DNA from: Candidatus Saccharimonadota bacterium
Lineage (GTDB): Bacteria > Patescibacteriota > Saccharimonadia > Saccharimonadales > Saccharimonadaceae
Direction: 5' to 3'
Assembly (NCBI GenBank): GCA_030445245.1
Contig: JAUCSD010000001.1
Span: 310,001-374,000 of the forward strand
DNA length: 64,000 bases
Below are positions 295 to 10,259 of this stretch, piece by piece. A model generated the notes under the pieces. It ran no database searches. It saw nothing but the letters and a program-made list of their open reading frames with translations, and was not told where the DNA came from. Made by a program: the position numbers and the translations under genes. How positions within the stretch are numbered: position 1 is the first letter of the stretch; the number at the start of each line of letters is the position of its first letter.

Positions 295-370
295 AGGGGC
301 ATAGCTCAGTTGGTAGAGCACTGGTCTCCAAAACCAGGTGTCGTAGGTTCGAGTCCTGCTGCCCCTGCCA
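295..370 (+). tRNA. tRNA-Trp (anticodon CCA)
   Basis: A 76-base cloverleaf with acceptor stem AGGGGCA pairing TGCCCCT, a D-arm (AGCTCAGTTGGTAGAGC), anticodon stem CTGGT/ACCAG with CCA at 328-330, T-loop TTCGAGT and an encoded 3' CCA at 368-370. It reads UGG (Trp). Its 3' end and the ten bases after it (AGCATAAGCA) are copied many times downstream, so this gene looks like the anchor or insertion site of the repeat array described below. The matching aminoacyl-tRNA synthetase (trpS) lies at about 45 kb. Confidence 0.97.
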
Positions 371-391
371 AGCATAAGCACAAAAGACTAA

Positions 392-413
392 GATTTCTTC
401 GGAAGTCTTTTTT
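392..413 (+). terminator. Terminator of tRNA-Trp with UUCG tetraloop
   Basis: A six-pair stem, GATTTC/GAAGTC, closes a TTCG loop and is followed by six T. It sits 21 bases after the tRNA CCA. Recognisable variants of this hairpin recur in many downstream repeats, and an almost identical copy lies at 17531. Confidence 0.85.
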
Positions 414-439
414 GTTTGAGATTATATTGTACGAAAATA

Positions 440-505: not shown

Positions 506-784
506 TTATGCCACAGGTGCGTTGCGTTTCCGCGGTTTGCGGATAGCAACGATGAGTCCAGCGAGACAGAGGGCCCATGTGATCAGAGCCCATGCCGTTC
601 CCGCATGCCACTGAGGCTCTTCCCATGACGGGTAGTACTCTGTGATGAGCGTGAAGAACGCACCGGCGCCAAGAAGATTGGCGAGCCAGCCCCAAACCGC
701 ACGACCCCGCGTCGCGGATGTGAGCGGAATGAGTAGCATGCCGATCTCCGATAGGATTACCAGGCAAAAAATAGCCGTAGCCAT
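506..784 (-). CDS. Small four-helix membrane protein, GC-rich orphan
   Basis: This 92-residue protein is almost entirely hydrophobic. It has a first helix at residues 3-23, then a hydrophobic second span, a WEEPQWHAG loop, a last helix ending near residue 82 and a basic tail (IRKPRKRNA). A purine-rich site, GAAGGGAAAC, precedes the ATG. The gene is clearly richer in G+C than its neighbours and points towards tRNA-Trp, the opposite way from most genes of the array. It lies between the tRNA and the first repeat, so under the cassette model it would be the most recent arrival. A long hairpin follows its stop. I recognise no family; a helix bundle of unknown function is all that can be said. Confidence 0.65.
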   Translation of the reverse strand: MATAIFCLVILSEIGMLLIPLTSATRGRAVWGWLANLLGAGAFFTLITEYYPSWEEPQWHAGTAWALITWALCLAGLIVAIRKPRKRNAPVA

Positions 785-870: not shown

Positions 871-941
871 AGTTCGAAGTGCGTCCATGAGGGGCTGCCA
901 AGTATAAGCAGTATAGACGAGTCCCATTTCGGAGACTTTTT
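871..941 (+). repeat. Array repeat R1
   Basis: The 40-base box at 871-910 differs from the array consensus at one position (AGTATAAGCA instead of AGCATAAGCA). A terminator-like hairpin, GTCCC...GGAGAC followed by T5, fills 920-941. The next gene's -10 box starts three bases later. Confidence 0.85.
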
Positions 942-4250: not shown

Positions 4251-4326
4251 AGTTGTGAAGTACGTCCACGAGGGGCTGCCAAGCATAAGTACAATAGACT
4301 AAGACCTCTTCGGAAGTCTTTTTTGT
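4251..4326 (+). repeat. Array repeat R4
   Basis: Box 4251-4291 with an extra base in the left arm (AGTTGTGAAGTACGTCC) and a final AAGTA. The spacer and terminator (ACAATAGACTAAGA, TTCG loop, T6, then GTTTGG) closely copy those of tRNA-Trp. Confidence 0.83.
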
Positions 4327-4371: not shown

Positions 4372-5310
4372 ATGAAACCAAAGATTCTAATTACAGACAC
4401 GTTATTCATCACAAAAGCAGACGAGCAAAAAATGCTAGATGCTGGATTTGAGATTGAAAGAATCGAAGACCCTGGTATGGACAATGTTCTCCTGAGAGAA
4501 GCTCTCAAGGATAAGACTGGCTATATTATTGGCGGAACAGAATCTGTTACGGATGAAGTGATCGAATCAGCCGATAATTTAAAGGTCATTACATTTACGG
4601 GTGCGGACTGGGCACATTTTATACCTGGCCATGAACTGGCTACAAAAAAAGGAATTCGGATCACTAATACACCTGGTACTACCATGTTTGCCGTAGCTGA
4701 ATTCACGCTCACCCTTCTTCTTATGATGCTTCGTCGTGCACTTGAGCTCGGGGGTCCAGGAGATGCTGGGTTTATAACAACTAAAAGTCTAGCTAACTCA
4801 CACATTGGCATTATTGGTGTAGGGTATATTGGCACAGAGATGGTGCGTATGTTAACGGCCCTAGGCGCTAAAGTAAGTTACTGGGATCGTAATCGTAATA
4901 CAAGCATTGAAACTCAGTACAATGCCACCTATCTAACCTTAGATGAATTATTTTCTCAATGCGATATTATATCTAACCATGTTTCATCTCAAGCTGGTGA
5001 AATTATAACTGGCGAACTTATTAATAAAACTAAAGAAGATGTTCTTTTCGTCAATACTGGTGCTGGTAATACCTTTAACATGGATGCACTCTATGATAGA
5101 ATCGCCTCTAAAAAAGCTCGTGCTGCGTTTGATGTACATGGTATTAAGGACGTGAGATTTGATGAGCTTCCGTTATCGGATTGGTATGCCACAAATGATA
5201 ATGGTGGTTTTAATACTCGACAAATGCTTGATAAAACAAATGAGATGGCCGTATCATCAATCATTAATGCATTAAAAACGGGTACCGACGAGCACGTAGT
5301 TAATTTATGA
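4372..5310 (+). CDS. D-isomer-specific 2-hydroxyacid dehydrogenase
   Basis: A 312-residue NAD(P)-dependent dehydrogenase of the D-2-hydroxyacid family (lactate, glycerate or phosphoglycerate type). The Rossmann fingerprint IGIIGVGYIGTEM lies near residues 143-155, with the acidic/basic end of the next strand in SYWDRNRN. The substrate-binding helix preceding it (MFAVAEFTLTLLLMMLR) matches the family. The usual catalytic Arg is probably in FVNTGAGNTFNMDAL, where GAG replaces the more common RG, so activity should be treated with care. TATACT at 4330-4335 would give a leader of about 30 bases with CAGGA before the ATG. It is the only gene between R4 and R5. Confidence 0.82.
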   Translation: MKPKILITDTLFITKADEQKMLDAGFEIERIEDPGMDNVLLREALKDKTGYIIGGTESVTDEVIESADNLKVITFTGADWAHFIPGHELATKKGIRITNTPGTTMFAVAEFTLTLLLMMLRRALELGGPGDAGFITTKSLANSHIGIIGVGYIGTEMVRMLTALGAKVSYWDRNRNTSIETQYNATYLTLDELFSQCDIISNHVSSQAGEIITGELINKTKEDVLFVNTGAGNTFNMDALYDRIASKKARAAFDVHGIKDVRFDELPLSDWYATNDNGGFNTRQMLDKTNEMAVSSIINALKTGTDEHVVNL

Positions 5311-5349: not shown

Positions 5350-5422
5350 AGTTCGAAGTGCGTCCATGAGGGGCTGCCATAGTGCTTACATTTAAATAGA
5401 CTTCGTTCGCGGAGTCTATTTT
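5350..5422 (+). repeat. Array repeat R5, left arm perfect and right arm lost
   Basis: The first 30 bases (5350-5379, through GGCTGCCA) are identical to the consensus; after CCA the sequence diverges completely (TAGTGCTTACA). A terminator AGACTTC...GGAGTCT and T4 follow at 5398-5422. Confidence 0.8.
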
Positions 5423-5436
5423 GATATAATTTCAAT

Positions 5437-5838
5437 ATGATTCATGTTAAATATAAACTGAAAGAATCTGCCCTACACGGTATTGGTTTATTCAGTGATC
5501 AAGACACTAAACAAGGTGAGCTAATTTATACGGCCAGTCCCCTACTTGATCTTAATATTACGCAACAACAATTCGATGCGCTCAACCAGGAAGAGAAAGA
5601 CGAAGTATTATGGTGGGGATTCTTCGATCAGCCAAGTCGAATGTGGCATGTTGATTTTGATGTCTCTAAATTTATCAATCACTCGTATGATGCCAACGTT
5701 ACTCAGCATAGAGACCACGATGAAGCTTATTTAATTGCCGCTCGAGATGTAACGATGGGAGAAGAACTTACGCAAAATTACCTAGAGTTTGAGGCGCAAG
5801 ATGATCTTACCCGCCGTGGAATTCCGCCTCACTCATAA
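5437..5838 (+). CDS. SET domain protein (putative lysine methyltransferase)
   Basis: A compact 133-residue SET domain. The N-terminal strand KLKESALHGIGLFS, the knot motif INHSYDANV (family NHSxxPN) and GEELTQNY (family GEELTxDY) are all present, so S-adenosylmethionine binding and methyl transfer to a protein lysine are expected; bacterial examples act on ribosomal or histone-like proteins. Pre- and post-SET regions are absent, giving a minimal enzyme. TATAAT at 5425-5430 is six bases from the ATG (leaderless). The TAA stop shares its last base with the start of repeat R6. Confidence 0.85.
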   Translation: MIHVKYKLKESALHGIGLFSDQDTKQGELIYTASPLLDLNITQQQFDALNQEEKDEVLWWGFFDQPSRMWHVDFDVSKFINHSYDANVTQHRDHDEAYLIAARDVTMGEELTQNYLEFEAQDDLTRRGIPPHS

Positions 5839-5910
5839 GTTCGAAGTACGTCCACTAGGGGTTGCCAAGCATAAGCAATATAGAATTAGACTTCGCAATG
5901 AATTCTTTTT
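5838..5910 (+). repeat. Array repeat R6
   Basis: Box 5838-5877 with GTACGTCC, CACTAGGGG and TTGCCA changes; right-arm AGCATAAGCA intact. The terminator is weak: AGAATT/AATTCT followed by T5 (5882-5910). Confidence 0.8.
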
Positions 5911-6513: not shown

Positions 6514-6586
6514 AGTTCCAAATACGTTCAAGAGGATTACTGAGCATAAGCATGATTAAAACAGTCTTCCACTTTGGGGCTGTTTT
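6514..6586 (+). repeat. Array repeat R8, diverged
   Basis: Box 6514-6552 (AGTTCCAAATACGTTCAAGA, then GCATAAGCA) is about 70 percent conserved. The terminator AAAACAG...CTGTTTT with preceding CATGATT matches the R3 subtype. Confidence 0.75.
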
Positions 6587-7186: not shown

Positions 7187-7258
7187 AGTTCGAAGTGCGT
7201 CCATGAGGGGCTGCCAAGCATAAACACGATGAATAAAAATTTCTTCGGAAGTCTTTAT
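7187..7258 (+). repeat. Array repeat R9, nearly perfect
   Basis: Box 7187-7226 has one change (TAAACA). The hairpin AATTTC TTCG GAAGTC is followed by a short T run. It is well preserved although it lies beyond the diverged R8, so age does not follow position strictly. Confidence 0.85.
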
Positions 7259-7784: not shown

Positions 7785-7855
7785 AGTTTGAAGTGCGTCC
7801 ATGAGGGGCTGCCACGATATTATCAATGTAAAAAAGACCACTTCGGAAGTCTTTC
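7785..7855 (+). repeat. Array repeat R10, right arm lost
   Basis: Bases 7785-7814 match the consensus except for AGTTTG; after GCTGCCA the AGCATAAGCA arm is replaced. A hairpin ACTTCGGAAGTCTTT remains at 7840-7855. The break point after CCA is the same as in R5. Confidence 0.78.
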
Positions 7856-9505: not shown

Positions 9506-9577
9506 AGCTCGATAGTTGTCCATGAGCTTCTGCCAAGCATAGCTACCATGACGAAGGATTCATTCGGAAGTCTTTTA
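9506..9577 (+). repeat. Array repeat R11, decayed
   Basis: Box 9506-9545: AGCTCGATAGTTGTCC, then CTGCCAAGCATAGC, about 31 of 40 bases conserved. The hairpin residue CATTCGGAAGTCTTTTA persists. Confidence 0.72.
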
Positions 9578-9622: not shown

Positions 9623-10006
9623 ATGAATATGAAACTAGAATTAGTTCCATTGCCAATCTCGGACGTTGAGCGGAGTAAAGCATTTTATATCAATACTGTT
9701 GGCTTTAATCTGGACCACGATGTCCAGCCTGGTAATGGCATGCGCATTGTTCAACTAACACCTCCTGGCTCGGCCTGTTCAATCGTGATAGGTACGGGAA
9801 TGGGACCTGCTGATGTCAAGCCAGGATCCGTGCGGAACCTTCACTTAGTCGTTTCTGGTATAGAAGCTGCGCATACATTACTAACTAGCCGTGGACTCGC
9901 TATCAGCTCGGTTGAGGATATGGGAGGGGTGAAGTATGCGTATTTCAGTGATCCGGATGGCAACACCTGGGCTCTTCAAGAGATTAGTCCATCTGCTAGG
10001 CTATAG
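9623..10006 (+). CDS. Glyoxalase/VOC superfamily protein
   Basis: A 127-residue protein with two beta-alpha-beta-beta-beta units of the vicinal oxygen chelate fold. The first has PLPISDVERSKAFYINTVGF, the second has LHLVVSGIEAAHTLLTSRG and ends with the family hallmark YFSDPDGNTWALQE. The metal ligands would be found around the HLVV strand and the Glu in ALQE. Such proteins cover lactoylglutathione lyases, dioxygenases and antibiotic-binding proteins; the role here is open. Unlike most neighbours it has a leader: TATACT at 9587-9592 and an AAGGAAAAA ribosome site before the ATG. Confidence 0.85.
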   Translation: MNMKLELVPLPISDVERSKAFYINTVGFNLDHDVQPGNGMRIVQLTPPGSACSIVIGTGMGPADVKPGSVRNLHLVVSGIEAAHTLLTSRGLAISSVEDMGGVKYAYFSDPDGNTWALQEISPSARL

Positions 10007-10185: not shown

Positions 10186-10259
10186 AGTTTCGAAGTGAGT
10201 TCGCAAGAGGGTTGTTAGGATAGGTATGCTGGTAAGAGATTGCTACGGAAGATTTTTTA
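10186..10259 (+). repeat. Array repeat R13, decayed
   Basis: Box AGTTTCGAAGTGAGTTCGCA, then GAGGGTTGTTAGGATAGG, with two small insertions. A weak hairpin ends in CTACGGAAGATTTTTT. The 130 bases between R12 and R13 hold no gene. Confidence 0.6.

Follow-up and report, generated by a model that had tools for sequence, protein, structure and literature searches.

The genomes of Saccharibacteria are tiny, and how such bacteria come by new genes is still to be explained. The stretch of DNA analyzed here (the window: 64,000 nucleotides, bases 310001–374000 of a complete 1.16 Mb genome) poses that question at a single locus, where a tRNA-Trp gene is followed by a row of small genes with a short conserved box after each. 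Where do the boxes come from, and what could have placed genes between them? An earlier note on this DNA held that the left arm of the box derives from a mobile element and not from the tRNA. Our comparisons support a model in which the left arm is very probably the attP-type half-site of a large serine recombinase (LSR) and the array a product of tRNA-anchored cassette insertion.

Anatomy of the array

The platform of the array is a tRNA-Trp gene with a CCA anticodon (295–370, plus strand; ARAGORN). Its last six nucleotides (365–370) read CTGCCA, and its distal motif, GTTCGA at 347, has the attB spacing discussed below. Directly 3′ of the tRNA there now lies the right end of the tRNA-proximal cassette (371–416, plus strand; type X1), made up of AGCATAAGCAC and a terminator-like hairpin. 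Each box consists of an arm, GTTCGAAGTGCGTCCATGAGGGG, and the core CTGCCA, usually followed by AGCATAAGCA and a terminator-like hairpin. In box R1 (872–900), on which the earlier note centered, the arm occupies 872–894 and the core 895–900. Seven further good boxes follow, all on the plus strand: R2 (1498–1525), whose arm is shorter by one base; R3 (2773–2801); R4 (4253–4281); R5 (5351–5379), followed by an alternative right end, TAGTGCTTACATTTAAATAGA; R6 (5839–5867), with the core TTGCCA; R7 (7188–7216); and R8 (7786–7814), followed by a differing right end, CGATATTATC. The eight share the left arm, as had been noted for the repeats. Three decayed boxes, likewise on the plus strand, lie at 6515–6543, 9507–9535 (R9) and 10188–10217; the last two are at the tRNA-distal end, and the final one marks the far limit of the recognizable array. 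Chance is excluded as the source of the boxes, because none of 100 shuffles equaled either the number of core matches (9, with 0.66 expected) or the number of arm matches (7, with 1.5 expected). In sequence searches of the 1.16 Mb genome the boxes were confined to this array, and two other matches with two mismatches were at control level.

The genes between the boxes are mutually unrelated and lie in both orientations. Cassettes 1 to 6 carry, in order, a 92-aa open reading frame without a Pfam match (506–784, minus strand), a Ser_hydrolase protein (PF06821; 956–1495, plus), a glycosyl hydrolase 16 (1675–2655, minus), an AlkZ-like DNA glycosylase (PF06224; 2950–4035, minus), a D-2-hydroxyacid dehydrogenase (4372–5310, plus) and a SET-domain protein (5437–5838, plus). 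A glyoxalase cassette (frame at 9623–10006) lies behind the decayed box R9, and a 77% identical relative of it is found in an array-bearing region of another genus (L060:3391–3817). The remaining cassette genes of the window are unknowns.

Spread among Saccharibacteria

Boxes like those of the window also occur in Candidatus Saccharibacteria sequences. Of 198 genomes in the same family, 38 were matched by a sequence model of the box at E ≤ 0.01, the weakest of which may be chance matches; at 1e-5 the model also matched further families within the order and a single genome of the class from outside it. Reading of the arrays gave a total of 163 non-redundant boxes, spread over about 43 genomes or loci and situated at genes for tRNA-Trp, tRNA-Gln, tRNA-Asn and tRNA-Arg. 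Spread by viruses was considered and rejected: two core matches on viral contigs were chance matches within GC-rich phage genes. As a separate observation, about 180 nt behind tRNA-Trp are conserved in several loci (L050:4094–4278, L052 on the minus strand, L059:7741–7926 and L161) and finish with a duplicate of the 3′ end of the tRNA, TTCCACGTGCCCCTGCCA; in some genomes this duplicate is followed by AGCATAAGC and boxes, as a decoy attB site would be.

The arm and the core have different origins

Ahead of CTGCCA, tRNA-Trp carries GTTCGAGTCCTGCTGCCC, and unbroken identity between the tRNA and the boxes therefore starts at CTGCCA. The earlier statement that identity begins only there holds for these six unbroken bases; it does not hold for likeness as a whole, since GTTCGA and TCC are present in both the arm and the tRNA.

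The boxes at other tRNA genes separate the two parts more clearly. Among boxes found by the arm alone, the core varied with the resident tRNA, being CTGCCA at tRNA-Trp, CAGCCA or TAGCCA at two tRNA-Gln genes, GAGCCA at tRNA-Asn and GCACCA at tRNA-Arg. Core and resident tRNA agreed exactly in 69 of 99 cases (permutation p about 5e-5), and among the 29 boxes at tRNAs other than Trp, 20 matched their own tRNA and one matched tRNA-Trp. Across the four types of tRNA the arm stayed constant and the final hexamer changed; the arm thus travels with the cassette, and the six bases alone are matched to the target.

Cassettes shared between genomes show where the borders fall. One cassette is 98.3% identical in G131 and UBA6025, against 81% for the backbones, and the identity extends through the arm that belongs to this cassette and breaks off immediately behind the core. 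In a second pair (L047 9420–10019 and L059 7143–7745), identity begins at CTGCCA and the preceding arms differ. The native flank of tRNA-Trp abuts CTGCCA in G007, G126 and G035, and in G079 it lies 3.8 kb away, after the last box. Taken with the constancy of the arm at four tRNA types, borders that fall on the core uphold the view of the left arm as belonging to the element, and the comparison also supports the arm as the probable binding site of the recombinase. The borders further support a crossover within the shared sequence, for which the interval can be narrowed from the 16 bp first suggested to the 6-bp core. The observation named in advance as contrary evidence, an empty tRNA-Trp with the arm already alongside, was not seen in the 72 complete tRNA-Trp genes compared, a number that includes a few loci twice; the nearest box to any of these lies 286 nt away, and 27 have one within 12 kb, in stretches of varying length.

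The right side of the box had been described as lost after CCA in two boxes. This proved wrong: the bases after CCA are those of the next cassette, and at the box at 5351 the supposed loss is the second of two recurrent right-end types. The common type, AGCATAAGC, follows 59 of the 163 boxes (0.34% expected), and the type seen at 5351 follows 19 (0.25% expected). There is an exchange of right sides among cassettes, and no loss.

Half-site geometry

The distance from the start of GTTC to the end of the core takes two values, 24 nt in tRNAs (58 cases) and 29 nt in boxes (89 cases), with at most 13 cases, a background level, at any other spacing. In serine integrase sites the zinc-ribbon motif occupies positions 16–24 of the attP half-site (Rutherford 2013, PMC3783163), and in attB the motif has been proposed, with mutational support, to lie 5 bp nearer the center (PMC3783163). 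If the count starts at the CT of the core, positions 24–16 hold the motif of the box, and TCC lies at positions 12–10 in box and tRNA alike. Since GTTC is thus 5 bp further out in the arm, as in the published difference between attP and attB, the box reads as a putative attP half-site joined to a tRNA-matching core. This 5-bp shift is the strongest argument for the arm as the attP and the tRNA as the attB half-site. A dyad in one class of boxes, ATGCT-CTGCCA-AGCAT, is off-center from the crossover expected by LSR geometry and was given no weight.

Recombinase genes near the arrays

The enzyme behind the arrays is most likely an LSR, not a tyrosine integrase. Serine recombinases are encoded in 16 of the 18 array genomes; G035 and G064 gave no PF00239 match. 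Several of these genes abut tRNA-Trp, with frames that end inside the tRNA in antisense (WQGYVESNH), and the enzymes have Resolvase and Recombinase domains by Pfam, with a zinc ribbon in most. LSRs adjoin the site at tRNA-Trp in G048, G163, G179, G185 and G017. The array of G150 begins with a unit that carries the LSR (L047:166–1600) and is closed by a box at L047:4469; in G048, the LSR element ends in GTTCTATCTTCATCCATGTACCC-CTGCCA, followed by the native terminator flank. Relatives of the G150 enzyme (100/99 support) from other families lie against tRNA-Gln in G311, G249 and G250, at loci that also contain boxes with CAGCCA or TAGCCA and that have the LSR at their head; the domain assignment comes from a Pfam run for G150 and from similarity for these three. 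No solved structure is near in sequence to the G150 LSR.

Some further LSR loci deserve mention in their own right. The tRNA-Gln element of G250 (L216:10361–16336) also encodes a SMODS nucleotidyltransferase and an S_4TM effector, likely anti-phage cargo. On the minus strand of L129 (G163), two copies of the tRNA-Trp 3′ end lie 8.4 kb apart (1564 and 9953), and the region between them is headed by an LSR. Most of the LSR genes retrieved from these Saccharibacteria (L183–L206) adjoin tRNA genes (Ser, Met, Leu/Cys, Gly, Glu, Gln, Asn and Pro), and their frames often run into the tRNA in antisense.

The array of the window itself contains no LSR. Its genome encodes a single distant one (612 aa, near 584 kb), with weak domain scores and not at tRNA-Trp. 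With no matching recombinase in this genome and none in G035 or G064, the enzyme is often absent today, and an array may persist after its enzyme has gone.

An alternative is that the cassettes are integrated at the 3′ ends of tRNAs by a tyrosine recombinase, in the simplest case the one Xer protein of the host, as in Xer-hijacking elements; the overlap would then be 6 bp, a length compatible with Xer. The window genome does encode an Xer, and in 13 of the 18 array genomes an Xer-like protein was the sole tyrosine recombinase found. We nevertheless regard this as improbable, since genomes in which no array was detected have Xer just as often, the boxes have no evident dif-like arms, and Xer would leave both the 5-bp motif shift and the LSR-headed arrays unexplained. 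A canonical dif search in 20 genomes gave no excess over a reversed control, although the dif of Saccharibacteria may differ. The window genome also carries a 400-aa tyrosine integrase by tRNA-Phe (G000:C1:643862–644419; L012), the mark of another, separate integrated element.

The clade that contains the G150 LSR has six members, and in five of them a G2P-like rolling-circle Rep adjoins the LSR; the autonomous unit therefore resembles a small rolling-circle integrative element. Could this HUH protein insert the cassettes itself, in the manner of IS91, beside a short target? The element borders do have just a short core in common with the target, but the Rep family is one of replication proteins and not a known transposase, an LSR adjoins in every place this Rep was found, no Rep was detected in the tRNA-Trp LSR elements of other lineages, and the 5-bp shift is a hallmark of LSRs. 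Insertion by Rep is accordingly more doubtful still than insertion by Xer.

A model for repeated insertion

From the observed box anatomy, cassette borders, core–tRNA tracking, LSR-headed arrays and 5-bp motif shift, we infer a reaction in which small circular elements bearing the arm, the core and a right end would recombine with the 3′ end of tRNA-Trp, the T-arm of the tRNA serving as the attB half-site. Exchange would fall within CTGCCA, the hexamer common to both partners, and the symmetry of the motifs makes its CT dinucleotide the most likely place. The tRNA would retain its CCA end and acquire the right end of the cassette together with a fresh terminator, and the arm and core of the cassette would land before the sequence that formerly flanked the tRNA. 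Repetition would build an array with the newest cassette nearest the tRNA. Autonomous members would carry the LSR and the rolling-circle Rep, and the window cassettes would be non-autonomous passengers, mobilized in trans by an LSR that has since disappeared. No recombination product, either a circle or an excision, was seen.

For textbook serine integrases, an occupied (attL) site is no partner for attP (PMC3783163), and repeated insertion thus requires an extra assumption. A shared right end could supply it, by restoring the same two site types at each insertion and so allowing repeated insertion at the tRNA. Many cassettes share a right end X; recombination of arm-X (P.X) with tRNA-X (B.X) would then return B.X and P.X, and one LSR could go on inserting and removing cassettes without limit and with no need of a directionality factor. 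The right ends differ between cassettes and LSR elements: the shared cassette right end was found at 37 of 69 boxes and at none of 8 LSR elements (p 0.005), whereas a GGA mirroring TCC was present in 6 of 8 LSR-element right ends and at 3 of 69 boxes. Unlike an expected P′ half-site, the AGCATAAGC right ends of cassettes do not mirror the left arm. We tentatively suggest, as a possibility that we rate somewhat below even, that Saccharibacteria possess a self-regenerating analogue of the integron built on serine recombination, with tRNA 3′ ends as the platform and the boxes as cassette sites.

Relation to known systems

Among characterized LSRs (A118/LI, Bxb1 and phiC31), the likeness lies in the Resolvase–Recombinase–zinc ribbon proteins beside the insertion site of the array relatives and in the 5-bp shift of the distal motif between attP and attB half-sites. 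The arrays differ in targeting tRNA 3′ ends, in their tandem non-autonomous cassettes and in the frequent lack of the enzyme from the array genome. The serine-integrase family fits those array relatives in which the enzyme is encoded, and the reaction would presumably be of that kind.

Serine-recombinase elements in tandem at one chromosomal site are known from ACME and SCCmec (PMC5964201), which use Ccr enzymes. In contrast, the present units are about 0.3–1.6 kb, usually with one gene, and occur at several tRNA genes of Saccharibacteria; SCC-like elements have a CcrA/B/C recombinase at rlmH, and the location here is a tRNA. Islands placed at tRNA genes by tyrosine integrases also restore the tRNA 3′ end on insertion, but they do so with a long duplication of the tRNA, compared with 6 bp of unbroken identity here, and the enzyme class appears to be different.

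The resemblance to integrons (IntI, attI and attC) is closest in layout: a polar array of small, unrelated and mostly single-gene cassettes, a conserved site per gene, a fixed platform and decayed boxes at the distal end. A true integron, in which attC sites fold and IntI acts in trans, is very unlikely and is contradicted by both folding and integrase content. The boxes fold no better than shuffled controls (z-scores −0.96 to 1.11 in ten folds), no second tyrosine integrase recurs across the array genomes, and the window array contains no tyrosine recombinase. A tRNA stands in place of attI, and the cassette genes lie in both orientations. Thus, the arrays are integron-like in their working but fail two definitions of an integron, IntI and a folding attC. 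It is equally improbable that the boxes are an ordinary repeat dispersed between genes, or a terminator element, with no link to mobility. The terminator-like hairpin after most boxes might suggest this, but the reading is contradicted by core tracking of the local tRNA, by shared-cassette borders on the core and by the restriction of the boxes to one array in the window genome.

In the limited literature covered, no description of such arrays was found in open papers, and to our knowledge no integron-like array based on serine rather than tyrosine recombination has been known before. If the proposed analogue is real, an LSR could be retargeted among tRNAs by a change of six bases. The findings predict new serine integrases with a conserved tRNA end and a six-base core as their target, which would be of use for DNA integration tools. 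For Saccharibacteria themselves, they provide a tangible site of gene capture that recurs in many genera and at several tRNA genes and whose borders can be predicted.
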